A DNA stretch of 64,000 nt from Rhodobacter sp. (GTDB lineage Bacteria > Pseudomonadota > Alphaproteobacteria > Rhodobacterales > Rhodobacteraceae): positions 1-64,000 of the forward strand of contig JASJDP010000029.1 in the NCBI GenBank assembly GCA_030065095.1. Direction: 5' to 3'. Below, in pieces: positions 52,701 to 64,000 of this stretch. How positions within the stretch are numbered: position 1 is the stretch's first letter; each line of letters opens with the position of its first letter. The position numbers and the translations under genes were made by a program. Under the pieces are notes generated by a model. The model made no database searches. It was not told where the DNA came from and saw nothing but the letters and a program-made list of their open reading frames with translations.

Positions 52701-53212
52701 TGGCGTCCCATCTCGCGCATTGCGCGGGCCACCGCCGCGCGGATCACCGGTTCGCCCAATCGCTTCACGGCACCGCGCAGCGCGCCCGCGATCCCCGGCT
52801 GGTCATCATCCAGCACCCGGCCGGTCAGCATCAGTGCCCAGGTCGACGCGTTCACCAGGCTTGACGACGAATGGCCCAGATGCCTGCCCCAGTCGCTTGG
52901 CGCGATCTTGTCCTCGATCAGCGCATCGATGGTTTCGGCATCGGGCACCCGAAGCAGAGCTTCGGCCAGGCACATCAGGGCGATGCCCTCGTCGGTCGAC
53001 AGGCCGTATTCCGCCAGAAACACTTCCATCAGTCCCGGGCGGGCTGAGCCGCGGATATCGCGCACCAGGCGTGCCGCCTGCTTGCTGATATCGGCCCGGT
53101 CCTGTTGCGAGAGCGCGGCAGCATCGATGAGAGCCGCAAGTACCGCATCTTCGTCGGCGTAGGTGTTTCGATCGATGCGGTTACGCAATGCGTCAAGTGA
53201 GTCGAGTGGCAT
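49763..53212 (-). CDS. putA: Bifunctional proline dehydrogenase / P5C dehydrogenase
   Basis: A 1149-aa enzyme that oxidises proline to glutamate in two channelled steps. Residues about 80-470 are the FAD-dependent proline dehydrogenase barrel (for example TVRLVKGAYWDTEIKRAQ). Residues about 540-990 are the NAD-dependent aldehyde dehydrogenase with the catalytic cysteine in GQRCSALRC. The C-terminal 130 residues form the extra conserved domain of longer PutA proteins. There is no N-terminal ribbon-helix-helix, so it is not a DNA-binding repressor. The Lrp-type putR often found divergently is absent. An ATG at 53212 starts the frame. Confidence 0.94.
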   Translation of the reverse strand: MPLDSLDALRNRIDRNTYADEDAVLAALIDAAALSQQDRADISKQAARLVRDIRGSARPGLMEVFLAEYGLSTDEGIALMCLAEALLRVPDAETIDALIEDKIAPSDWGRHLGHSSSSLVNASTWALMLTGRVLDDDQPGIAGALRGAVKRLGEPVIRAAVARAMREMGRQFVLGESIEAAMNRAETLESRGYTYSYDMLGEAARTEADAGRYHKAYRDAIASIAKACTHKDVRRNPGISIKLSALHPRFEEAQKTRVMAELVPRVADLAARARAAGMGLSIDAEEADRLSLSLDVIDAVIADEALAGWDGFGIVVQAYGPRCGDVLDWLYLLAERHDRRLTVRLVKGAYWDTEIKRAQVAGIDGFPVFTRKQATDISYIANARKLLGMTRRIYPQFATHNAHTAAAILYMAGEQRGFEFQKLHGMGDRLHELLMARGDLNCRIYAPVGAHRDLLAYLVRRLLENGANSSFVNQIVDEDVPPETVAADPFETVGTAPVRIRRGPDLFRPERANSMGWDLAHRPTLAKIDAARAPFLDTLFTAEPLLAVDPLGETPQSHRNPADPADLVGEVRNAAAVDVADAIASATYWDAPVAERANVLNRAADLYEQHFGRLFALLAREAGKTLPDAVGELREAVDFLRYYGARAKIFDRPPRGVFACISPWNFPLAIFTGQIAGALATGNGVLAKPAEQTPLIAYETVRLLHAAGVPRTVLQLLPGDGPTVGTALTSDPRVAGVAFTGSTETAHAIRRAMADNLSPGAPLIAETGGLNAMIVDSTALAEQAVRDIVQSAFQSAGQRCSALRCLYVQEDIAEGFREMLFGAMDALVLGQPWDLATDIGPLIDAEAKAGIDAYLAVARTDGSIVKELPIGTKGHFVPPTVIEVNGILDIEREVFGPVLHMATYHADQLDAVIDDITHSGYGLTFGLHTRIDDRVQHIVERLPVGNIYINRNQIGAIVGSQPFGGEGLSGTGPKAGGPDYLTRFAAATRVTFSTASGSDLDFAALQAAIDATKPAGSRRDVVDLPGPTGESNRLSRVPRAPLLCLGPGREAEQHQARAVEGHGGVAAAAGGSVAPELVQAVSGISGVVWWGDDAKARAYARALARRTGPILPLITGAIEAPDVLLERHVCVDTTASGGNAELLAQISAD

Positions 53213-53504
53213 TTACGGTCCTCCAGCTCAGACCAGTTTAGCGCAAGTTTGACCGGGGCTCGGCCCAAAATAGCCGATCACATAGAGAAACTGGCCAAAA
53301 CTCCAGGATTCAGCGATGCCGGCGAACTGCCCGATCTCAACCGCCTCGACCACGCGTTTCCGCATGTGCTGTCTTTTGATGAACGTCACGGTCAGTGTCT
53401 GGCGCCCGGAATAATTCCCAAATCTATGATAGCGTGTTTGCCATTGAATACACTGCGTTTTCACCTTGGCGATCCATAGATCAGCCGGTATAGCGTTGGG
53501 GTGT

Positions 53505-53792
53505 GCGGGCGTGGCGGAATGGTAGACGCATCGGACTTAAGTGATTGAGTGCGCCGATTGGGAAACTGCGGCGTAGAACTGCTCAAATTCGGGGAAACCT
53601 GTCAGATGGCAATCCCGAACCAAGCCCTTCGGGGAAGGTGTAGAGACTAGACGGGCAGCACCTAAGGCATGGCTAAGGTGAAGGGATAGTCCAGACCACA
53701 AACGCCCATGCGGGCGGCGGCGAAAGCCGTAGCTGGTAAGAAAATCCGTGGGGCGCAAGCCCGTGGGGGTTCGAGTCCCCCCGCCCGTACCA
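53505..53792 (+). tRNA. tRNA-Leu(UAA), interrupted by a group I intron
   Basis: The exons are 53505-53538 and 53741-53792. After removal of the intron they fold into a class II tRNA. The acceptor pairs GCGGGCG with CGCCCGT (first pair G-U). The D-arm is GCG/CGC. The anticodon loop is C-T-T-A-A-A-A with anticodon UAA. The long variable arm is GGGC-GCAA-GCCC. The T-arm is GGGGG-TTCGAGT-CCCCC, and CCA is encoded (53790-53792). The intron sits between U34 and A35, the same position as in cyanobacterial tRNA-Leu(UAA). Confidence 0.92.
53539..53740 (+). ncRNA. Group I intron in tRNA-Leu(UAA)
   Basis: The 202-nt insertion shows group I hallmarks. P1 pairs ACTT at the 5' exon end (53535-53538) with GAGT (53547-53550), giving the required U-G at the splice site. 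The intron ends with G (53740, omega G). Core segments GGCAATCC, AGAGACTAGACGGG (P7 and G-binding site) and GATAGTCC (P7 3' strand) match the known tRNA-Leu introns. CACCT/AGGTG forms P8. It has no open reading frame for a homing endonuclease. Confidence 0.88.
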
Positions 53793-53901
53793 ACCTGCAA
53801 CTTGTGCTGGAATAACCGACTAACTTACTGAAGGGTATGGTGGTTTTATTGGGGTTCGGTATTCGTATCGTGCCCGTCGCGACGATGTTCGTTCCGGCCA
53901 T

Positions 53902-53988
53902 TCAGAAGGCTTGGAACGACACTTCGAACAGTTCGTTGTCCGATTCCGATATGCTGGAACCGTCCCATGGGTGGTGGCCGGTCTCGGA
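53902..53988 (-). other. Coding-like 28-codon stretch directly after the M50 protease stop
   Basis: In the same frame as the M50 gene, 28 sense codons follow its TGA before the next TGA (53902). There is no start codon at the beginning. The encoded residues are acidic and serine-rich (SISESDNELFEVSFQAF at the end), and 21 of 28 codons end in G or C, as in real genes of this window. It may be the remains of a longer C-terminus, a scaffold-peptide remnant, or chance. Confidence 0.3.
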
Positions 53989-55164
53989 TCATCCCATGAA
54001 AAACCGCCACAGCAGTCGCAATCCGTGAATCACACCCAGCGCGACGACCGATAGCATCGCCAAACGTGTCAGCAGCACCAGAACCCCGAACCCGCCCAGC
54101 GGCGTGAAGAGCTCGGCCCTGCCGCCTTCGCGCAACCGCTTGCGCAGCGACCAGACGTGCCGGGTGGCGCGGGTGTAGTAACCGGGTTGTCCGATCGCTT
54201 CGGACACCAGAAGATAGGCGTCGCCCTTGTTCGTCGGGATCAGCGTCGGAACCATCGTGAAGAGCGGCAACAGCGCCGCCGACAACACAATGTCGGCCAT
54301 GGTCGGGTGTTGGATCACGTTCCACAGCACAGCGCCAAGGCCAAAGAACGACAGGTTCACCAGTGGCCCGGCGATGACCGTAAACACCTTGTCGCCATAG
54401 CCGAGAGCTGACCAGATCGCCTGATCCGGTTTTGCCCAGCCGACAAACAGCATGCGCCGCCGCCCGATGCCCACCTCACGCATCGGCACGCCCTTGGCCA
54501 TACAGGCCAATGCATGGCCAAATTCGTGCAAGGTCATCACCGTGAACCAGACAGGGTAGAACAGAAACACCCACCAGACGGTGTTCAGCAGCCGTGGAAA
54601 CTGCCCCCAAACCGCGGTCTGCTGCTGAAACGAGAGCACCCAGCCCCAGGCCACAAGCAGGCCAAGACAGGCCAAGACCCCCAAACCCGCCGGCCGCCGC
54701 AAAAAGGCCAGCAGGGGCCCAAGGCTGCGATCCGTGTCGTCCAGGTTGAAAATCACTTTGGGGGGGCGGCGTCGCGCCAATCCGTATTCGATCCCCGCAA
54801 AGGGATCGACCTTTTGCTCCGCGCCCTGACCCGCATGTACCAGAAACCCCAGGGACCGCATCTTGTCCTCGAACGTTCCGAGCGCATCCGGTTTCATCCG
54901 GCCCCCGGAGGTTGCCGCAAACGCGGTCAGAACCGCCTCTGTATCGCGCGTCCCATCATAAAGCCGCAAGAGCGTCAGCTGCCTTGGGTGCAACCGCACG
55001 CGCAGGTCGCGGTCGGGCAGGTAGACCTCGGATTTGCCATCGGGCCCGACCCCGCCCGTTTCGACAAAGCCCGCAGCCGCGAAATGCGCACTGGCCGACA
55101 CGCGTGCCAAGGTCGCCGGATCGGTCTGTCTGTCCGCCAGTGCCGTCGCACCATCCTCGGGCAT
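53989..55164 (-). CDS. Membrane M50 metalloprotease with PqqD-like domain (TglG-like candidate)
   Basis: A 391-aa protein. Residues about 45-112 look like a PqqD-type peptide-recognition domain (LHPRQLTLLRLYDGTRDTE, then LGFLVHAG). Transmembrane helices begin at about residue 160. The site-2-protease motif HEFGH (H213, E214, H217) lies in the membrane, with D315 in TNKGD as third ligand. This is suited to cleaving a modified amino acid from a carrier peptide inside the membrane. It is the last gene of the operon, and its ATG directly follows the stop of the methyltransferase gene. In the 3-thiaglutamate pathway a membrane protease releases the product; the parallel is inference. Confidence 0.82.
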   Translation of the reverse strand: MPEDGATALADRQTDPATLARVSASAHFAAAGFVETGGVGPDGKSEVYLPDRDLRVRLHPRQLTLLRLYDGTRDTEAVLTAFAATSGGRMKPDALGTFEDKMRSLGFLVHAGQGAEQKVDPFAGIEYGLARRRPPKVIFNLDDTDRSLGPLLAFLRRPAGLGVLACLGLLVAWGWVLSFQQQTAVWGQFPRLLNTVWWVFLFYPVWFTVMTLHEFGHALACMAKGVPMREVGIGRRRMLFVGWAKPDQAIWSALGYGDKVFTVIAGPLVNLSFFGLGAVLWNVIQHPTMADIVLSAALLPLFTMVPTLIPTNKGDAYLLVSEAIGQPGYYTRATRHVWSLRKRLREGGRAELFTPLGGFGVLVLLTRLAMLSVVALGVIHGLRLLWRFFMG

Positions 55165-56151
55165 TCAGCCCCCCTGCCCAACGGCGACCGCGCCCTGCGC
55201 GGCCAACTTACGCGCCGTGTCCTCGCGGATGGCAAGAAAATGCGCCGCGATCTCGTCACGGGTTCGCGTCGGCGCCTCGGATGCCGCACCAGAGGCGCGG
55301 GCAATGCAGAACACCCCGCCGGGCCGTGTCTGTCCGGACAAAAGCTCTTCGGTCACCAGTTCCGGCACCCAGCCGAACCGGGACAGGGCCGCGGGCAGGC
55401 TGTGACGGTCGAAGTAACGGCGATGCGTGTGGCTGAAACAGCCTTCGATCCTGCTGAACCCCAGCGCCCGGCCTTCGACGACGATCAGCGCATCCGGGGC
55501 GCTGGCCTGGCGGCAGATCGTCAGCACCCGCCCCAGATCGAACACGTGCTCGAGCGAGCCGGTGATGATGATCAGATCGACACTTTCCCGCGCAAGCTGC
55601 ATGTCTTCGGCATAGAGGCAATCCACCGGCAGCTTCAGCCGGTCGCGCCCGAACATGGCAAATCCCAGATCCGGGTCGGTGCCGTATACTTCCCAGCCCC
55701 GGTCCCGAAACGCCACCATCAGCCCGCCGCAGGAACATCCCACATCCAAAAGGCGCCCCGGCGCAGACAGATGGTCTGCGATGTTGCCGTACAGCTGCCG
55801 TCCGCGATGCACTTGGTCGGCAACGAACGCCTTCTCGGGCGTCGTCCGGCCGAACAGCACGGACCGGTAGTGCTTTTCATAGAAGTCGCGGTAGAACCGC
55901 TCTTCAAACCGCTCGCTGTGAAACACGTACCCGCAATCCCGGCAGCCGTGCACCGGCAGGCGCCCGAACCGGTCCTTGCCGATATCGATATCGTCCTGGA
56001 TCACCTCCAGATCTTCGCTGCCGCATATTTCGCAAGGAATGCTGAAATACCGGTAATCGTCCGCCATGCCGATATTGGCGAGGTAGCGATGCGCGTGGTC
56101 CGGCAGAGGTGCAGGCCTATTTGACACAAAGAAAGCCTTCGAAGCAGACAT
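55165..56151 (-). CDS. Class I SAM methyltransferase with N-terminal zinc ribbon
   Basis: A 328-aa methyltransferase. The N-terminal segment carries CEIC and CRDC (about residues 40-73), a zinc-binding module. The Rossmann core has LLDVGCSCGG as motif I (about residue 137) and GTDPD as the acidic residue motif. Proteins of this domain order methylate sugars or small molecules. Its start overlaps the CmoA-like gene by 35 bp; a GTG at 56127 is an alternative start with a better site. In this operon it is a candidate methyl- or carboxymethyltransferase of the peptide-bound intermediate. Confidence 0.8.
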   Translation of the reverse strand: MSASKAFFVSNRPAPLPDHAHRYLANIGMADDYRYFSIPCEICGSEDLEVIQDDIDIGKDRFGRLPVHGCRDCGYVFHSERFEERFYRDFYEKHYRSVLFGRTTPEKAFVADQVHRGRQLYGNIADHLSAPGRLLDVGCSCGGLMVAFRDRGWEVYGTDPDLGFAMFGRDRLKLPVDCLYAEDMQLARESVDLIIITGSLEHVFDLGRVLTICRQASAPDALIVVEGRALGFSRIEGCFSHTHRRYFDRHSLPAALSRFGWVPELVTEELLSGQTRPGGVFCIARASGAASEAPTRTRDEIAAHFLAIREDTARKLAAQGAVAVGQGG

Positions 56152-56842
56152 ATTTGAAGATCGACATCACATCGACGAACCCGGCACGCTTGAACAGGTC
56201 CAGGTTGCCCTGGGTCGAAAACGGTTCGAGCACGCCTTTCAGGCTCTTGGTCTTGCCCAGAATCTCGCTTGCCGAATAGCCCTGCTCCAGCTTGTAGTCG
56301 ACATAGATGCCGCTCATCATGTCCTGAAACCGGGCATCTGGGGCACGAACCTTTTCGAACACGATAAAGGCGCCTCCCCAATTCAGTGCATTGTAAATCC
56401 GGTCGACGAATTGCTGGCGTTCGCGCGGGCGGATGAACTGCATCGTGTAATAGGATACGATGAAATCTGTCGGCTCGAAGTCGAACTCCGCCGCGCTGGC
56501 ATGGGCAAACGTCAGATTGTCGTGCCCGGTCGAACTGCGCCTGGCTTCGTCGACCATCTCCTTGGCCACATCGAGCCCCACCCAATCGGTGCGCGGATAA
56601 CGTTCGGCCAGCTTCCGGGTCAGCGCCCCGGTCGAAGACCCGACCTCGTATCCGACCGAACCGGGCTGCACGAAATAGTTGCTCAGCGCCAGCGTTAGAT
56701 CATGCCCGTCCAGATAATAGGGCACAGATTTGCGCACATGGTCGTTGAACGTCTTCGGTGTGTTGCCTCCAAAGGTCCACGCCCCGTCGCCGGCTTCGAT
56801 ATCGTCACCGACGGTCGCCACCCTTTCCTTGATCGTGCCCAT
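56117..56842 (-). CDS. CmoA-like class I SAM methyltransferase
   Basis: A 241-aa methyltransferase whose layout follows CmoA, the carboxy-SAM synthase: HVRKSVPYY near the N-terminus, YFVQPGSVGYEVGSSTGALT as motif I, YYTMQFIRPRERQQ, then GYSASEI and a final FEGFLCVK. The arginine that binds the carboxylate in E. coli CmoA (R199 in SQKRS, from memory) corresponds to threonine in GKTKS, so it may be a normal methyltransferase or use a different donor. It lies 12 bp after the MFS gene. Confidence 0.78.
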   Translation of the reverse strand: MGTIKERVATVGDDIEAGDGAWTFGGNTPKTFNDHVRKSVPYYLDGHDLTLALSNYFVQPGSVGYEVGSSTGALTRKLAERYPRTDWVGLDVAKEMVDEARRSSTGHDNLTFAHASAAEFDFEPTDFIVSYYTMQFIRPRERQQFVDRIYNALNWGGAFIVFEKVRAPDARFQDMMSGIYVDYKLEQGYSASEILGKTKSLKGVLEPFSTQGNLDLFKRAGFVDVMSIFKYVCFEGFLCVK

Positions 56843-56854
56843 CCGGACGCCTCC

Positions 56855-58057
56855 CTATACACGTGCTCCTTTGGTCGCCATCCGGTGCAGCGTCCGAAAG
56901 ACGACGATGGCTGAATTCACGACTGCCAGGGCCAGAACCATCGACAGCATCGCCTCGATCCCCGACGAAACGATCAGGTTGCCCGCCACCAGCGGAAATC
57001 CGAAGACACCGACAAAATAGGCCAGCGAAAACAGAAGCAGCGATTGCGGCATCCGTCCCTCGGGCGCCTCGTTCGCGGCCAGCCCGTTGATCACCGAATA
57101 GGTCAGGCCATAACCAACGCCCAAAACCGCCGCTGCCGCCAGATAGGCCAGCGGGCTGTTCGTTACGGTCATGAACAGAATGATCGAAATCAGCGTCAGG
57201 CTCGTCAGAACCAGAAGCGAAAAAAACGGATCCTTCCTGACGACATATCCCGCCAGCAGCATCCGGCACAGAATGGCTGCCACCATGAATCCGATGAAAA
57301 ATAGCGAATAATCAAACCCGTAATACGCCGCATAGCTGGTCTGGAAACTCGACAATCCGCCGAAGATCGCGCCACCGATGCCCACCATCACAATCGAGTA
57401 GATCGCGTGTGATGCCACGACCTCGCGCGTAGCCCGCAACGATATCCGGCTGACATGCGGCACGATCTTGTCGCTGTCGATCAGCCGCTGGTGCAGCCAT
57501 AGATAAAGCGCGCCGCCGATCAGACTGGCCACAGCGGCAAACACGAAAGCCGATTCAACCGGCAGTTCCATCGCTGTTGCCACCCGCCCGATGATCGGTC
57601 CTGTGCCGATGCCGCTCATCATCGAGCCCGACAAAAGCGCAAAGAACTTCACCCGCCGCTCCGGCTCGATGATCGCTGCCACCAGAATGGGACCGAGCGT
57701 GTAGAAGGTGCCCCAGCCGATGCCCAGCACGAAGCCCATGACGATCAGGCCCAGCCCCGCGGACGAGACCAGCGCAAATCCCAGCCCGGACGCCGCCAGA
57801 AACAGTGCGGAAAGCGCCACCGCCCGGGCCGACCCAAGCATGTCGCCGATATGGCCGGACAGGATGACAAGGATCACGGTGCTGACCGTCGCAGCCGAAA
57901 TGATCAGCCCCGCCATCGCCTCGTCCCCGCCGCGCTGACCCACCAGCATCGGGATCAGAAAGGTTACCCCGTAGGCGATGGAAAGCAGGTAGCCGCCGAT
58001 GCACAGAATGGCAAATTCGCCACCGGCAACGCGGGGCTGAGAATAGGTCTCGCTCAT
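56855..58057 (-). CDS. MFS transporter
   Basis: A 400-aa major facilitator with about 12 hydrophobic helices. The loop between helices 2 and 3 has the usual GxLaDrxG-like pattern (GHIGDMLGSARAV). A basic central loop (HQRLIDSDKIVPHVSR) divides the two halves. Within this operon it is the probable exporter of the final small molecule. Its ATG overlaps the stop of the LanB-like gene by 4 bp. Confidence 0.85.
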   Translation of the reverse strand: MSETYSQPRVAGGEFAILCIGGYLLSIAYGVTFLIPMLVGQRGGDEAMAGLIISAATVSTVILVILSGHIGDMLGSARAVALSALFLAASGLGFALVSSAGLGLIVMGFVLGIGWGTFYTLGPILVAAIIEPERRVKFFALLSGSMMSGIGTGPIIGRVATAMELPVESAFVFAAVASLIGGALYLWLHQRLIDSDKIVPHVSRISLRATREVVASHAIYSIVMVGIGGAIFGGLSSFQTSYAAYYGFDYSLFFIGFMVAAILCRMLLAGYVVRKDPFFSLLVLTSLTLISIILFMTVTNSPLAYLAAAAVLGVGYGLTYSVINGLAANEAPEGRMPQSLLLFSLAYFVGVFGFPLVAGNLIVSSGIEAMLSMVLALAVVNSAIVVFRTLHRMATKGARV

Positions 58058-60291
58058 GTCTGGTCCTGTCCTGCGATGAAACTCATGCGGAATTCCGCCG
58101 TGAAGGCGCCCCTTTGATCGGCAAACAGCAGGTCGTCGCGGGCCGGCAGCATTTCCGACAGGCTGAATTCGGGCACTTTTCTACAGTGTTTGACCAGTGC
58201 ATCGACCGCCAGCGGATTCCGGAAGTCGACATAGATCGGCTTGGGCTCTTCGGGGACAACCGCGAACACGAAGCGCGGCAGCCCGGCCGTCTCTGCCCAA
58301 TTGGCAATTGCGGCAAAGCACTCCGGCGCCTCGCCGGGTCTCTCGGTCTTCGGCAGATCGGCGGTCCGGAAATTCCATTGCCGGCGCTGAAACACCACGC
58401 GGCCGACACGTAACCGCTCTCTGCGCGACCGGCCGGCCAAGTCACCGGCCAGGGCGAACAGCGCCTTGTGCAGGTGTCCTGCCATCGCGGTCAGCAGCGG
58501 TACACGAATGCTGCGCGCGGGCACGACCAGTTCGATACAGGTCGTCCCCTGTTCCACTTGGCATCCTGCCGCAGTGATCACCTTTCCGGCGTCCAGCCGC
58601 GAAGCCTGTCCGGGCAAGGTGATTTCAAGCAGGTCGGCACAGTCCGGCAGGTTGACGTTGGACCGCTGATAGGTCTCCGGCGGATCGCACATGACAGGCG
58701 TCGGGCCGGCCAGAATCCTGCCAAGATCGTCTTCGATCCCGGCATCCTTCGGCCGGAACGGTGCCGCAACATGCTGCCCGACCATGTAGATGCCCGGATG
58801 GGTTTCTCCGATCACGACCGAAAAATCGCCTGCCGCCACAGCATCGGCATCCCTGGCCATGACCATGATGTCGGGCGAGTGCACATTTCTCCATGGCAGC
58901 GTGGCAATCACGCGGTCCGGCGCCGGCAGCTGTTCGAAAAACGCTTGCAGCCCGACCGGCGCAAAGCAAAGCTCTCCTCGCTGCTCGCCGCCCAGTCCGC
59001 TGTCGGCAAATTGCTCGGCGGTGCTCCAAAGCTGCCGCAAATCGGCGCGCTGCCGCTTTACAATCGCGGAAACGACATCCCCGGCACCCGACAGCGCTTT
59101 CAGAAAAGTTAAGAACCCTGCGCTCCCGTCCGGTGCGACCGAGCCCAAAACCTCGCCGTAGGCGTCATCCAATGCCGCTGCAACCCGATCCACCAGACAG
59201 GTATAGGCCGACAGAAGCGGCGCCAGATCGCGGGTTATGCCGTCGGCGGTCGTGCGCGACAGCGTCAGATCCACCTTGCGTTGGGCATCCTCGTAGGTCG
59301 GAAACCGCCCGACATACATCGCACCCGCCTTCCGCTCCAGATCGACACCCCAACCCTGCGCCATCGCACCGACGCGGCCCAGCGTCTCGGCCCGCGCGGC
59401 ACCGGTCAGGGTTTGCGCCTCGCGGCATATCCCGGCCAGTTCGCCCAACCGGGCCGACCACGTTTCAAGGCGCGGCGAGACCCGAAACGCGCCAACGCGA
59501 TCCGCAAGCCAGTCCATCGGGTGTTTATGAACGGTGGGAACGACGATGTCGGTCACGATGACACCCTTTTCCAGCATCTTGGAGGCGAATCCCGACACCG
59601 GCAGGTCGGCCCGAATGACAGGATCTTCGGTCGCCTGGCGCCGGGCGATATCCTGTAAAAGTGCGATCTGCCCGGGTTTCAGCGCCACGCGACGATCGAC
59701 AGGCACAATCACCGCATCCGGCGTCAGCGCCACACCGCTGTTCAATCGGACCGGCAGTGCCGCCTGTACCTGGGGATCCGCGGCAATCTGATCGGCGATA
59801 CGCTGCACGAACCAGTGCTCGAAGAACACGCGCCGGTCGGCATCGGGGCGGGTGTCGATCACCTCGAAACAATCGCCCGATCCGTCCGCTGCGATCCTTC
59901 CCCAGCTCATCGGTCCGAAAAACGAACACGTGTCGTTCTTGGCGCACAGGCGCTGCATATACATCCAGTAGAGCCGCAATCTCTGACGGTTGCGGCTGTT
60001 GATCCGGCCCAGATCGCATTCGCTCAACCGTTGCACACGGTCCAGCGCATCCGGGTTCGAAAGCCCGATCGCTTCGGCGACAAGCTCATCCCGCGCCAAC
60101 CCGACAAACGCCTCCTGGCAGACCGTCAGATCGGTTGAGAACCAATCCGTCAGCGCGCCTTCGTCCTGCGGATCGACCGGGCAGGCGCAGGTCTCCAGCC
60201 AAGCCAGCGGAAACCCGGCCGAGCGCATCCAGAAGGATGCTGACGCGGTCCAGCCAAGCGCGACATGGGGTTGAAGATCCGCGTGTTTCAT
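58054..60291 (-). CDS. Short LanB-like protein, candidate peptide aminoacyl-tRNA ligase
   Basis: A 745-aa protein of the lantibiotic dehydratase N-terminal (tRNA-dependent glutamylation) family. The segment RLYWMYMQRLCAKNDTCSFF followed by GPMSWG corresponds to the conserved SR-x-TPFG region of LanB proteins. The separate glutamate-elimination domain (about 300 residues) of full LanB is missing, and no gene for it lies nearby. Short LanB proteins of this kind add an amino acid from charged tRNA to the C-terminus of a carrier peptide (PEARL, for example TglB). It lies between the MNIO partner (6 bp) and the MFS gene (overlap), in one operon. Confidence 0.78.
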   Translation of the reverse strand: MKHADLQPHVALGWTASASFWMRSAGFPLAWLETCACPVDPQDEGALTDWFSTDLTVCQEAFVGLARDELVAEAIGLSNPDALDRVQRLSECDLGRINSRNRQRLRLYWMYMQRLCAKNDTCSFFGPMSWGRIAADGSGDCFEVIDTRPDADRRVFFEHWFVQRIADQIAADPQVQAALPVRLNSGVALTPDAVIVPVDRRVALKPGQIALLQDIARRQATEDPVIRADLPVSGFASKMLEKGVIVTDIVVPTVHKHPMDWLADRVGAFRVSPRLETWSARLGELAGICREAQTLTGAARAETLGRVGAMAQGWGVDLERKAGAMYVGRFPTYEDAQRKVDLTLSRTTADGITRDLAPLLSAYTCLVDRVAAALDDAYGEVLGSVAPDGSAGFLTFLKALSGAGDVVSAIVKRQRADLRQLWSTAEQFADSGLGGEQRGELCFAPVGLQAFFEQLPAPDRVIATLPWRNVHSPDIMVMARDADAVAAGDFSVVIGETHPGIYMVGQHVAAPFRPKDAGIEDDLGRILAGPTPVMCDPPETYQRSNVNLPDCADLLEITLPGQASRLDAGKVITAAGCQVEQGTTCIELVVPARSIRVPLLTAMAGHLHKALFALAGDLAGRSRRERLRVGRVVFQRRQWNFRTADLPKTERPGEAPECFAAIANWAETAGLPRFVFAVVPEEPKPIYVDFRNPLAVDALVKHCRKVPEFSLSEMLPARDDLLFADQRGAFTAEFRMSFIAGQDQT

Positions 60292-60297
60292 TCCGTC

Positions 60298-61134
60298 TCA
60301 ACCGCTCAACGCGACAGCCCGGATCTTGGCAAACTTGGCATAGGATCCGATATTTTCACGGACGAAGTCCTGCGTCACCGTGCCCGTGGCCAGCCGCGCG
60401 GCCGCGTCGAAATCGGCCGCCTGTATGCGTGCAAACCTGTGTTTCTGCGTGGGATCCGGCAGATATGCCGCAAAAAAACAGACCTCCTTCGGAAGGTCGG
60501 GCAACGCCGCGGCGGATGTGCCTTTCGCCGCGAATAGCGGCGCGATGTCGAATTCGGTTGCAACCGTGCGCGCGCGCCCGGTCCAGACCGGCATCCGGCC
60601 CTTCTCCAGCCCTGCAAGAATGGCAGCCCGATCGGGCACCGGCTCGTCCCAGACGCGTTCATCCAGATCGGCTGCAGCGCGCAAGACCTCGACCGCGGCG
60701 GTTTCGAGCTTTGCCACCGACGCCAGCGGTGCAATGTCCGCGCCGAACCGGCTCTGCCGCAACCAGGCCAGGATTTTCGCACACAGCCGGTAGACGAACG
60801 GCCCGTCGTCCAGCCAGCCGGTGTCATCATAATAGGCCTCGGCCACTTCGCGGATGTCGCAGCCGTGGGCAAGCAGAACACGATGCGTCAACGGAGCCCC
60901 CAACTCGACGGCGTTGATGAACGCGCTGACAACCCGGAACCGGTAGGAGGTCACAAACCATTCGGCATCCTTGAAATGGGCCTGATAATAGCGCGCGACC
61001 TCTGCCTCCTCGCCGGCAAATCCGGTCTTTGCCAGATCGTCGTCCAGCGTGCCGTTCCGAAGCGTGGCCTGCAAGTCCGGTTCCTGTAGGATCCTGCGCC
61101 AGACATTCCATGTGGTTTCCGCGGCCAGGCTCAT
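60298..61134 (-). CDS. Probable partner protein of the MNIO enzyme
   Basis: A 278-aa protein without a recognised catalytic motif. It starts with aromatic residues (WNVWRRILQEPDL) and is largely helical, with RYYQAHFKDAEWFVTSYRFR. DUF692/MNIO enzymes nearly always need such a small partner that binds the peptide substrate, as in TglH-TglI or MbnB-MbnC. Its ATG overlaps the stop of the MNIO gene by 4 bp, which supports a one-to-one complex. The assignment rests mostly on context. Confidence 0.6.
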   Translation of the reverse strand: MSLAAETTWNVWRRILQEPDLQATLRNGTLDDDLAKTGFAGEEAEVARYYQAHFKDAEWFVTSYRFRVVSAFINAVELGAPLTHRVLLAHGCDIREVAEAYYDDTGWLDDGPFVYRLCAKILAWLRQSRFGADIAPLASVAKLETAAVEVLRAAADLDERVWDEPVPDRAAILAGLEKGRMPVWTGRARTVATEFDIAPLFAAKGTSAAALPDLPKEVCFFAAYLPDPTQKHRFARIQAADFDAAARLATGTVTQDFVRENIGSYAKFAKIRAVALSG

Positions 61135-62108
61135 GCGACGGTCTCCAGCACCTGCTTTCGCGTGCTGAACCGGCTTTCCGGACCATATGCCTTGTCCCAG
61201 ATCGACATGGCGATCTCGAGATCGCGCATGATGAAGTCCTTGTCACCCTCCTCGCCCATGATCCGGGTATCGGGGTGATGCGCCTGCCCTTGGTATTCCA
61301 GAAAAACGCCACCCGGACGGCTGCGCGCCAGGACGTATTCCAGCATCTGCCAGACCTCGTCGGGAACCGGGCTGTCGTGCCAGTCGTGATACACGCCCTC
61401 ATGCCAGCTTCCACCCGCCACATGGATGCTGACAATCCGATCAAGCGGGATCGTGTTCAGATAGTTCCGGGCCGAAAACCCATCCAGATTGATCGAGTTG
61501 GCGTAGATATTGTGCAGATCGACATGCAGATAAGTCCCGGATTTCTCGACCAGTCGGGCCAGAAATTCGGCCTCCTCCATCTCGCCACCCGGGCACGGCA
61601 GGTAGTAGGCCGCGTTTTCATGCGCCAGCGGCATGCCGTAATACTCCTGCAAGCGCCGGGCCCGATCGGCCAGCCGGTCAATTTCCGCGTGCGAAAATTG
61701 TACCGGGCTGCTCCAGATATCGAGCCAGGAGTCGTCTCCATAGAACATGTGATTGGCCACCCAGGGCGAGTTCAGCTTTTTAGCCAGTGGCACATGGCGG
61801 CGCACCGCCGGCGTCTCCTCCAGCGGGCCGAAACCGAAATCGCAACCATAGTTGGAATGGGCCACCAACGGGCATTTCCGGGCCAGGTCCTGCATCCGTT
61901 CGGCAAATCCCGGCAACATCAGATACGGCCCGTCGAGCGCACCCATGATGGAATCCAGCAGCACTTCGAACGCATCTACGTCACACTCATCAAACGGAAA
62001 CCAGTCGAGGATTTCCGGGTTGTACTGAATGCCGATGCCCAACGGTTCCACGACCGGTGCCGGCTGCCGGGCGACAGCGGTTCGCGTCATATCCAGGTCG
62101 ATGCTCAT
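61131..62108 (-). CDS. DUF692 / MNIO multinuclear iron oxidative enzyme
   Basis: A 325-aa TIM-barrel metalloenzyme of the DUF692 family. The start LGIGIQYNPEILDW is typical. Likely iron ligands are H84, H120, E164 (HENAAYY), D197/N200 (DLHNIY), H229 (IHVAGG), D242 and H244 (DWHDSP) and E271. Such enzymes oxidatively rearrange cysteine residues or other side chains in carrier peptides (MbnB, TglH). ATG 62108 overlaps the decarboxylase stop (ATGA). A frame extending to 62204 lies inside the decarboxylase gene and is rejected. Confidence 0.85.
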   Translation of the reverse strand: MSIDLDMTRTAVARQPAPVVEPLGIGIQYNPEILDWFPFDECDVDAFEVLLDSIMGALDGPYLMLPGFAERMQDLARKCPLVAHSNYGCDFGFGPLEETPAVRRHVPLAKKLNSPWVANHMFYGDDSWLDIWSSPVQFSHAEIDRLADRARRLQEYYGMPLAHENAAYYLPCPGGEMEEAEFLARLVEKSGTYLHVDLHNIYANSINLDGFSARNYLNTIPLDRIVSIHVAGGSWHEGVYHDWHDSPVPDEVWQMLEYVLARSRPGGVFLEYQGQAHHPDTRIMGEEGDKDFIMRDLEIAMSIWDKAYGPESRFSTRKQVLETVA

Positions 62109-63499
62109 GCTGTCTGACTCCCAAACGCCTGTGTCAATGTGTCGGTCACGATGTTCAGATCGCCGTCCCCGGTCTGCCAGTTGCTCGCGGCAAGCCGGAA
62201 GCAAAAGCGACCCTTGTAGGTGGTCGGCGTCATGAACAGCCGGCCACTGCCGTTGATCCGCTGCAGCAGGTCGCGGTTCCGCGCATCCACCGTTTCGTCC
62301 TCATAGCTGCCGCGGAAACAGACGATGTTGAGCCGCGTCTCAGCCAGCCGCTCGAAATCCTGCGAGGCATCGATCCAGTCCGACAAGCGTCGTGCGAACC
62401 GGCAGTTATCCTCGAAAATCCGGCGAAACCCGGCCCGGCCATAGGCCTGCAAGCTTAGATACAGCGGCAGCGCCCGATAGCGCCGCGACTGTTCGACCGC
62501 GCGGTTCATGAACGCCGGCAGAGTGCCGTCCTTGGGCACATAGGGGGCGTCTGCGGAAAACGACATCTCCTGCCGGTCCATATGCCGCGAGAAGGCCAGC
62601 CCGCAGTCATAGGGCAGGTTGAGCCACTTATGCCCATCGACGGACAGGGAATCGGCCCGCTCCATCCCCGCGGCAAGATGCGCATACTCCGGCAACGACC
62701 GGGCGAAGGCACCGAATGCCCCATCGACATGCAGCCACGCCCCATGTCGTTCGCACAGATCGGCCACCTCTGGAAGCGCGTCAAAATCACCGGTGTTCAC
62801 CGTGCCCGCGCTGGCCACAACAATCTTTTGCGTCCCGGGGCGGCTGGCCAGCGCCTCGGCCAAAGCTGCGGTGTCGACCGCTTCGCGGCCCGGAAGGCTC
62901 GGCACCTCGCAAAGGTTGCGCCGCCCCAGGCCAAGCGTACTCATCGCCTTGTGAATGCTGGTATGTGGGGTGCCCGCGAAAACCGTGATCCGAGGCGCGC
63001 CGGCAATCCCGTCCTCGGCAATGTCGTATCCTGCCTGCTGGCCGCACCATTGCCGCGCCCCGGCAAGGCAGGCCAGATTGGCCGCCGAGGTGCCCGTTAC
63101 CAGAACGCCCGAAAGCTCGTCCCGCGGCAGAGCCAACAGGTCAAGCACCTGTGCCAGCGCCAACTCCTCGATATACGCGGCGATGGAATGCCGCTCGGTG
63201 GCCACGTTCTGATCCAGATACGGTACCAGAATATCGGCGGTCAGCGCCGCCGGGGTCACCCCGCCGGTGACAAACCCGAAATAGCGCGGCCCGGAGGACC
63301 GGCTGTGCTGGCCGCCATGGCTGCTCCAATACGTCTCCAGCGCCTCAAGCTCTCCCACGCCGGCCTCGGGCAGTGCCGGGAAGGTCGAGGGGCAGGCATG
63401 CCCCACGTCAACAACGGCGCCATCGGCATTGCCGCGCAGAAAACTGCGGCCAATTTCCAGCGCGCGGCGCTCGGCATCCAATGAATTGTCTGCAAACAT
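62105..63499 (-). CDS. Pyridoxal-phosphate-dependent decarboxylase
   Basis: A 464-aa group II (aromatic amino acid/glutamate-type) decarboxylase. The cofactor lysine is K291 in SVDGHKWLN and the pyridine-nitrogen aspartate is D259 in HVDGAFG. GTSAANLACL contacts the phosphate. It lies 62 bp after the aminotransferase and overlaps the MNIO gene by 4 bp, so it belongs to the same operon. Decarboxylases are not part of the 3-thiaglutamate pathway as I remember it, so it points to a different precursor or end product, for example an amine. Confidence 0.85.
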   Translation of the reverse strand: MFADNSLDAERRALEIGRSFLRGNADGAVVDVGHACPSTFPALPEAGVGELEALETYWSSHGGQHSRSSGPRYFGFVTGGVTPAALTADILVPYLDQNVATERHSIAAYIEELALAQVLDLLALPRDELSGVLVTGTSAANLACLAGARQWCGQQAGYDIAEDGIAGAPRITVFAGTPHTSIHKAMSTLGLGRRNLCEVPSLPGREAVDTAALAEALASRPGTQKIVVASAGTVNTGDFDALPEVADLCERHGAWLHVDGAFGAFARSLPEYAHLAAGMERADSLSVDGHKWLNLPYDCGLAFSRHMDRQEMSFSADAPYVPKDGTLPAFMNRAVEQSRRYRALPLYLSLQAYGRAGFRRIFEDNCRFARRLSDWIDASQDFERLAETRLNIVCFRGSYEDETVDARNRDLLQRINGSGRLFMTPTTYKGRFCFRLAASNWQTGDGDLNIVTDTLTQAFGSQTA

Positions 63500-63561: not shown

Positions 63562-63666
63562 TCAGGCGAAGACGCGGCTTTCGACCACCTCGACATCGTC
63601 GAGATCGAAATCCTCAAACTCGTCGTCGGAACCGGCGGTAAAGACCTGTTCCAGCGCCGTATCCAT
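63562..63666 (-). other. Acidic scaffold-like tail of the aminotransferase
   Basis: The last 34 codons begin with an in-frame ATG (63666) without ribosome binding site. From about residue 13 they contain 11 acidic residues in 18 (GSDDEFEDFDLDDVEVVE) and end with SRVFA. Class III aminotransferases normally lack this extension. Its composition is like a leader or scaffold peptide with a free C-terminus for tRNA-dependent extension. Confidence 0.4.
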
Positions 63667-64000
63667 CGCGTTGACGATTGTATCGACATTTTCGCGTGTG
63701 CAGATCAGCGCCGGGCTCAGAAGCAGGGTGTTGTTGTAGCCCGCGATGCTCCGGTTGGATGCGCCGATCAGAACCCCCTGATCGCGGCAGCCTTTCACGA
63801 CCGCTCGAATATCCGCTTCCGCCACCGGCTCCTTGCTTGTGCGGTCCTTGACCAGTTCGATCCCTGCAAACAAGCCCAGACCGCGCACATCGCCGACCGC
63901 CTCGTGCCGGCCCATCAGCTGGTGCAGCGCCTGCTGCAGATACGCACCCACATCGCGGCTGTTGGCCAGCAGATCCTCGTCCTCGATGATCCGCATGTTT
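63562..64000 (-). CDS. Class III aminotransferase, C-terminal part (runs off window)
   Basis: The frame is open to the window edge, so the N-terminal two thirds including the PLP lysine are not visible. The visible part has the class III C-terminal pattern: DEDLLANSRDVG, VRGLGLFAGIELVKD and LLLSPALICTRENVD. The usual end of the fold is reached about 35 residues before the stop. The remaining tail is very acidic and ends in SRVFA. The gene is the most upstream visible member of the minus-strand operon. Confidence 0.85.
   Translation of the reverse strand, partial: NMRIIEDEDLLANSRDVGAYLQQALHQLMGRHEAVGDVRGLGLFAGIELVKDRTSKEPVAEADIRAVVKGCRDQGVLIGASNRSIAGYNNTLLLSPALICTRENVDTIVNAMDTALEQVFTAGSDDEFEDFDLDDVEVVESRVFA

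Follow-up and report, generated by a model that had tools for sequence, protein, structure and literature searches.

The 64,000-nucleotide stretch of Rhodobacter sp. DNA analysed here, which we call the window, carries at its right end a minus-strand operon of nine genes, all of them uninterrupted open reading frames. The first encodes a class III aminotransferase resembling taurine/hypotaurine–pyruvate aminotransferase (Pfam PF00202, Aminotran_3), of which the C-terminal third (63562..64000, minus strand) falls within the window. Its stop codon occupies positions 63562–63564 and its start lies past the window edge at contig base 65010, giving a protein of 482 amino acids (full frame L003:13563-15011). 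There follow, all on the minus strand, genes for a PLP group II decarboxylase (62105..63499; PF00282), a TglH-like MNIO (DUF692) catalytic subunit (61131..62108; PF05114), a TglI-like partner of TglH (60298..61134), a 745-residue, TglB-like small LanB protein (58054..60291; Lant_dehydr_N), an MFS transporter (56855..58057; MFS_1), a TglE-like carboxy-SAM synthase homologous to CmoA (56117..56842), a TglF-like carboxymethyltransferase with the SAM methyltransferase fold (55165..56151; Methyltransf_23) and a TglG/TmoG-like M50 membrane metalloprotease with an HEFGH motif (53989..55164). The start of the MNIO gene was set at the ATG that it has in common with its counterpart in a second genome, G192, described below. 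Another minus-strand frame, at 53537–53800, contains GTRTPTGLRPTDFLTSYGF; such frames are frequently encountered near RNA genes as spurious open reading frames, and ARAGORN found no tRNA in 53000–54200.

Comparison with tgl and tmo clusters

The operon was compared with six of eight loci at which separate TglA-like carriers were found (see below), in stretches of 17.6–19 kb, the Trinickia loci L017 and L018 being left out. In each of the six, the carrier is flanked by the G-like and H genes, and B, I, E-like and F-like genes are also there. The window MNIO is 61–68% identical to the carrier-adjacent MNIO proteins of these clusters, and the corresponding values are 28–38% for the TglI-like protein, 53–59% for the CmoA homologue and 44–51% for the TglF-like protein. 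The M50 protease is 27–31% identical to the M50 genes of the six tgl-like and of three tmo-like clusters, its Peptidase_M50 score falling below the Pfam gathering score, and its predicted role is to release the finished amino acid from the carrier.

The LanB protein, for which no PDB relative was found at E ≤ 1, can be aligned with TglB/TmoB-like proteins, and residues equivalent to TglB Arg10, Glu801 and Arg803, the importance of which is described in the part of PMC11962472 available to us, are conserved in it. Positions were assigned with the P. cerasi protein standing in for the numbering used in the publication; the published Glu542 could not be mapped onto the window protein, P. cerasi having Asp at 542. 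With the Lant_dehydr_N domain and the three key residues, the protein is predicted to be a PEARL, a small LanB able to extend the C-terminus of a peptide. The MNIO and its partner would form a TglHI-type pair, the TglI-like protein matching NF058584 with an E-value of 1.9e-29 and a score of 102.9 bits against a cut-off of 450 bits. Likewise, the TglE- and TglF-like proteins would supply both of these enzymes of the 3-thiaglutamate pathway, the former matching the NCBIfam CmoA model (E=5.6e-37) below its cut-off. The best NCBIfam matches of the MNIO are to other MNIO families, again below cut-off; for the PEARL, NCBIfam gave no match at all. Given these sub-threshold matches of the TglI-like, CmoA-like, M50 and MNIO proteins, and a PEARL with no NCBIfam model, the product of the operon is not certain to be 3-thiaglutamate.

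The tgl clusters of Pseudomonas, which make 3-thiaglutamate by means of TglA–TglI, share with the window the PEARL, TglH, TglI, the CmoA-like protein, the second methyltransferase, the candidate M50 protease and the carrier end. In three of them (L066, L067 and L068), a PLP decarboxylase (54–56% identical to that of the window) and an MFS transporter (54–55%) adjoin the tgl-like genes; the P. cerasi decarboxylase lies in two frames. Their carrier, however, is a separate gene next to tglH (open frames of 60, 60 and 82 aa), whereas in the window it would be the tail of the aminotransferase, and the Pseudomonas clusters examined are without such an aminotransferase. Indeed, none of the six carrier clusters has an aminotransferase of this kind in its 17.6–19 kb, and its best matches at E ≤ 1e-60 in the eight carrier genomes do not exceed 38% identity. 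The tmo cluster of Tistrella mobilis, which makes 3-thiahomoleucine, resembles the window in its carrier, Cys-adding PEARL, H, I and M50 protease, but there the carrier is separate and a radical SAM enzyme and a methyltransferase replace E and F, as described in the accessible part of PMC9303977. Since relatives of the B, H, I, E, F and G proteins are found in all six clusters, which are without the aminotransferase, the window cluster is, by its gene content, a complete tgl-like set in which the carrier appears to have been moved onto an added aminotransferase. A daptide pathway, suggested by matches of the aminotransferase end and the M50 protease to daptide models below cut-off, was rejected on account of the tgl-type carrier and remaining enzymes.

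The C-terminal tail of the aminotransferase

The initial annotation had pointed to a strongly acidic tail of 30 residues on the aminotransferase and proposed that it is a carrier peptide fused to the enzyme. The acidity stands, with 10 Asp or Glu among the last 21 residues, as does the ending, ESRVFA; the length has to be revised to about 25 residues (458–482; window 63565–63639). These comprise a seven-residue linker between core and carrier, TAGSDDE (residues 458–464; 63619..63639, minus strand), and a TglA-like end, FEDFDLDDVEVVESRVFA (residues 465–482; 63565..63618, minus strand). Relatives on plasmids, some of them annotated as Tpa, the taurine/hypotaurine–pyruvate aminotransferase, are 65–71% identical over 93–94% of the query, but they end at query residue 456–459 and have no carrier tail (30 matches listed of 1938 records). 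Whole-genome relatives of 63–70% identity give alignments that reach residue 453–468, and those extending past 459 mostly cross a stop codon. We inspected 31 aminotransferase loci, namely the window gene, 22 relatives at 63–70% identity and 8 at 33–40%. The carrier tail is absent from all 30 of the others, among them L002, a 67% identical paralogue in the same genome, so that the tail was not seen on aminotransferases of unrelated genomic context.

The enzyme itself is probably active, with a specificity near that of taurine–pyruvate aminotransferase, because it keeps the AKG context of the lysine and 169 of the 185 positions that are invariant in 21 relatives (L046, a partial match, was omitted from this comparison). 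Among the 25 NCBIfam models listed for it, of 71 matched, none reached its cut-off.

For comparison with TglA, residues 33–50 of that carrier, FEEFDLDDIEVIESKVFA, were taken from the residue names of the TglA variants given in the part of PMC9016710 at hand. The last 18 residues of the aminotransferase align with them without gaps, with 14 of 18 identical and Ala as the final residue in both; the four differences (E/D, I/V, I/V and K/R) are all conservative. This alignment, which had been proposed at the outset, covers a stretch sufficient for TglHI according to the same source. Its BLOSUM62 score is 81, the self-score being 89, while the maximum in 200,000 shuffles was 54 and the next-best score among the ends of 424 open reading frames of at least 80 aa in the surroundings was 16.

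A chance likeness would be conceivable for the last four residues, since the core C-terminus of many relatives reads ...RVFG or similar, and once, in L030, ...RVFA; these four letters prove nothing alone, and only the 18-residue match is diagnostic. It is from such core endings that one might take the tail for an ordinary acidic C-terminal extension of an aminotransferase subfamily, unrelated to carriers. The 18-residue match, however, comes after the end of the core, no shuffled sequence approached its score, and the other aminotransferase loci inspected lack the tail altogether. This explanation is already contradicted, and we give it next to no weight.

The residues on which the tgl enzymes depend are also present. 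In the portion of PMC9016710 available, TglHI is reported to require Phe36 of TglA, Leu38 is also important, activity is barely detectable once Asp37 and Asp39 are both lost, and the changes tried at Ala50 lower or abolish it. The equivalents F468, L470, D469/D471 and A482 are all retained, and with them the FxLD motif and the conserved C-terminus of a carrier. The shortest TglA fragment active with TglHI is given as residues 33–51, 19 residues in all, in what could be seen of PMC10880893, and the accessible text of PMC9016710 records TglHI activity even with a 17-mer and acceptance of 12 carrier residues by TglB. Judged by these lengths, the aminotransferase tail is long enough for both enzymes. 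The N-terminal parts of carriers of this kind are described as dispensable (PMC9303977, available in part), and another PEARL accepted, in part, three folded proteins, eGFP, lysozyme and MBP, when they bore a 14-residue scaffold tag (PMC11962472, likewise). A PDB sequence search with a 28-residue tail gave no match.

TglHI activity on TglA depends on the FxLD motif (PMC9016710, in the part seen), the presence of which would also suit a tail that serves as a docking signal to TglHI or the PEARL, with another, unrecognised carrier as the true substrate. A dock, however, would need neither an exact C-terminal VFA nor a free Ala, and both are invariant in nine aligned sequences (the window tail, the tail in G192 and seven separate carriers); nor does the draft genome hold a second TglA-like sequence at E ≤ 10. 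We therefore regard docking as improbable and the tail itself as the likely carrier.

Separate carriers and a second fusion

The initial annotation had seen no precursor-peptide gene in the operon, and this was borne out both upstream and in the draft genome. No stand-alone scaffold gene is seen upstream of the aminotransferase: the next long open reading frame is L003:15280-16278, and none of the three short minus-strand frames lying between the two ends like a carrier. An upstream scaffold gene, which would have lain beyond position 64000 of the window, was therefore rejected, the tail itself giving a single match when used as a query at E ≤ 10 in the 5.34-Mb draft assembly. As this genome is a draft in 62 contigs (99.57% complete), a carrier may be hidden in an assembly gap; one of very different sequence may also exist. 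We also rejected a separate peptide beginning at the internal ATG (63666). By eye we agree with the earlier observation that this codon lacks a ribosome site, and in G192 the Met is replaced by Ile, which argues against a separately started peptide.

Just upstream of the ribosome site of the aminotransferase gene there is a long, nearly perfect hairpin (L003:15023-15074, contig about 65022–65073, outside the window), and a folding energy of −107.3 kcal/mol (z −2.5) was calculated for the 280-base leader. The hairpin could act as an attenuator or terminate transcription of the gene upstream; in Rfam the leader had a single match, at chance level and far below the gathering score of the family. 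Elsewhere in the same genome, on contig C40, L010:10427-12739 encodes a second small LanB, 29–31% identical to the window PEARL over two stretches. It keeps the E-x-R end, a 2-oxoglutarate-dioxygenase-like frame was noted nearby by eye, and the locus is possibly another PEARL-type cluster.

A scan of genome_contigs (84,980 species) for endings of the tail type returned nine loci, eight of which are TglA-like carrier genes, so that the same end does occur on stand-alone peptides in homologous clusters; the ninth, L012, is a false match that reads on beyond the motif. The eight belong to Pseudomonas (three), Trinickia (three), Oxalobacteraceae (one) and a Sorangium MAG (one); apart from the last, we take them to represent seven other Pseudomonadota. 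The open frames at L011 and L017 total 118 and 195 codons, and the start was taken at a likely internal Met, which for L017 is the same Met as in its Trinickia relatives. The scan does not cover every genome, since G192, whose tail fits the pattern, is missing from its nine loci. A carrier ending in FDLEDVEIIESKVFA (...ESKVFA) was also found beside MNIO, TglI-like, LanB and M50 genes in the genomes G421, G549 and G646, clusters that we infer to be of the tmo type. All the carriers seen outside the source genome and G192 are separate genes, and here the short carrier peptide of a pearlin cluster would be replaced by an in-frame C-terminal fusion; whether a separate short carrier defines the pearlin class is a matter of definition.

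G192, from another genus of the same family, carries FEDFDLDDIEVVESRVFA in frame on an aminotransferase, and the gene order there matches that of the window: aminotransferase with tail, decarboxylase, H, I and B. The PEARL was detected in 2 of 390 genomes of an order sample and in 2 of 394 of a family sample, two overlapping and incomplete samples in which the positives are the same pair, the source genome and G192. Genus searches, in which one and two genomes were reachable, yielded no third fusion. No relative of the TglI-like protein was found by the protein scan of genome_contigs or by a plasmid search; its family occurs in 1 of 398 genomes of a phylum sample, the source genome only, and in 4 of 385 of a class sample, the source genome and three tmo-like genomes.

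The G192 copy (L009:5717-11859) is a decaying cluster, with transposase-like frames, recognised by eye, directly after the truncated PEARL gene. Its aminotransferase has two in-frame stops and is missing about 258 residues, the decarboxylase is interrupted by a frame change and at least one stop, and the PEARL stops at the equivalent of Arg803; the tail, on the other hand, is intact and shares the reading frame of the last 80 residues. The 19 kb read around the cluster contained no E, F, G or transporter gene. Only two genomes have the fusion, and with the G192 genes broken a single intact example is known.

On comparing the two genomes, dN in the tail is 0.040, the lowest of seven pieces, although the tail has only 21 codons (two amino-acid and five silent changes) and dS is near saturation. 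The adjoining core gives a dN of 0.159, the N-terminal part 0.140 and the other genes 0.074 to 0.254, and dN is well below dS (0.6–1.8, near saturation) in all seven pieces. In the PEARL the raw numbers of changed codons are about equal, 242 amino-acid and 241 silent. From its presence in both genomes, the fusion appears to be older than the split of the two genera. Selection has probably maintained it over most of the period after the genomes parted, as dN is well below dS, the tail included, though this is read from 21 tail codons with dS near saturation.

Such a pattern is not what would be expected if the fusion were a relic of a decaying cluster, in which carrier and aminotransferase had come together by chance and the pathway had ceased to operate. 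That account draws on the broken aminotransferase, decarboxylase and PEARL end in G192 and on the genes lacking from the 19 kb around them; against it stand the nine uninterrupted genes of the window and the excess of dS over dN throughout, and we consider it very unlikely. Overall, we conclude with good confidence that the tail is the carrier for a pearlin pathway of the 3-thiaglutamate type and that it is joined in frame to a taurine–pyruvate-aminotransferase-like enzyme. The proposal of a fused carrier made at the outset thus gains support, at the level of sequence, from the match to the TglA end, the eight separate carriers, the enzyme set of the operon, the want of a separate carrier in the draft genome and the occurrence of the fusion in two genera.

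A proposed cycle on the enzyme C-terminus and its implications

The individual reactions and the product of the cycle that we propose are inferred. The PEARL would activate the C-terminal carboxylate of Ala482 and add Cys from Cys-tRNA, after which TglH and TglI, bound to the FxLDD part of the tail, would remove the β-carbon of the Cys to leave a 2-mercaptoglycine residue. TglE would make carboxy-SAM and TglF would carboxymethylate the thiol; TglE is a CmoA homologue and TglF transfers a carboxymethyl group in the portion of PMC10491745 available. The M50 protease would then release 3-thiaglutamate, leaving the aminotransferase free for another round. As long as the amino group of the residue is held in an amide on the carrier, neither PLP enzyme should act on it by the usual chemistry. 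It is conceivable that the amino acid, once released, is processed by the decarboxylase and then the aminotransferase along a GABA-shunt-like route. We would also raise, tentatively, the idea that the aminotransferase is both a catalyst and a covalent platform, a folded PLP enzyme whose own C-terminus is lengthened by tRNA-dependent ligation, with the added residue then rebuilt into a 3-thia amino acid and released, and which converts this amino acid further together with the decarboxylase, the unstable product being made and consumed on one particle.

Borosins offer a parallel in that a substrate peptide is fused to the C-terminus of a pathway enzyme (PMC7878506, as far as accessible). There, however, the fused enzyme modifies its own peptide, which becomes the product, whereas the aminotransferase tail would be acted on by other enzymes and serve repeatedly as a carrier. 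Among the literature matches listed, in a search to which subscription journals were mostly outside the scope, no report of a carrier–enzyme fusion of this kind appeared.

In the pearlin pathways described in the sources available to us, a small free peptide is the platform on which the amino acid is assembled. A natural fusion of carrier and enzyme, if true, would mean that PEARLs and TglHI work in nature on the C-terminus of a folded protein, which for the PEARL accords with the tag experiments made with another PEARL in the accessible part of PMC11962472. It would provide a ready-made construct for the C-terminal labelling of proteins, and it would tie a specific aminotransferase to a tgl-type pathway.
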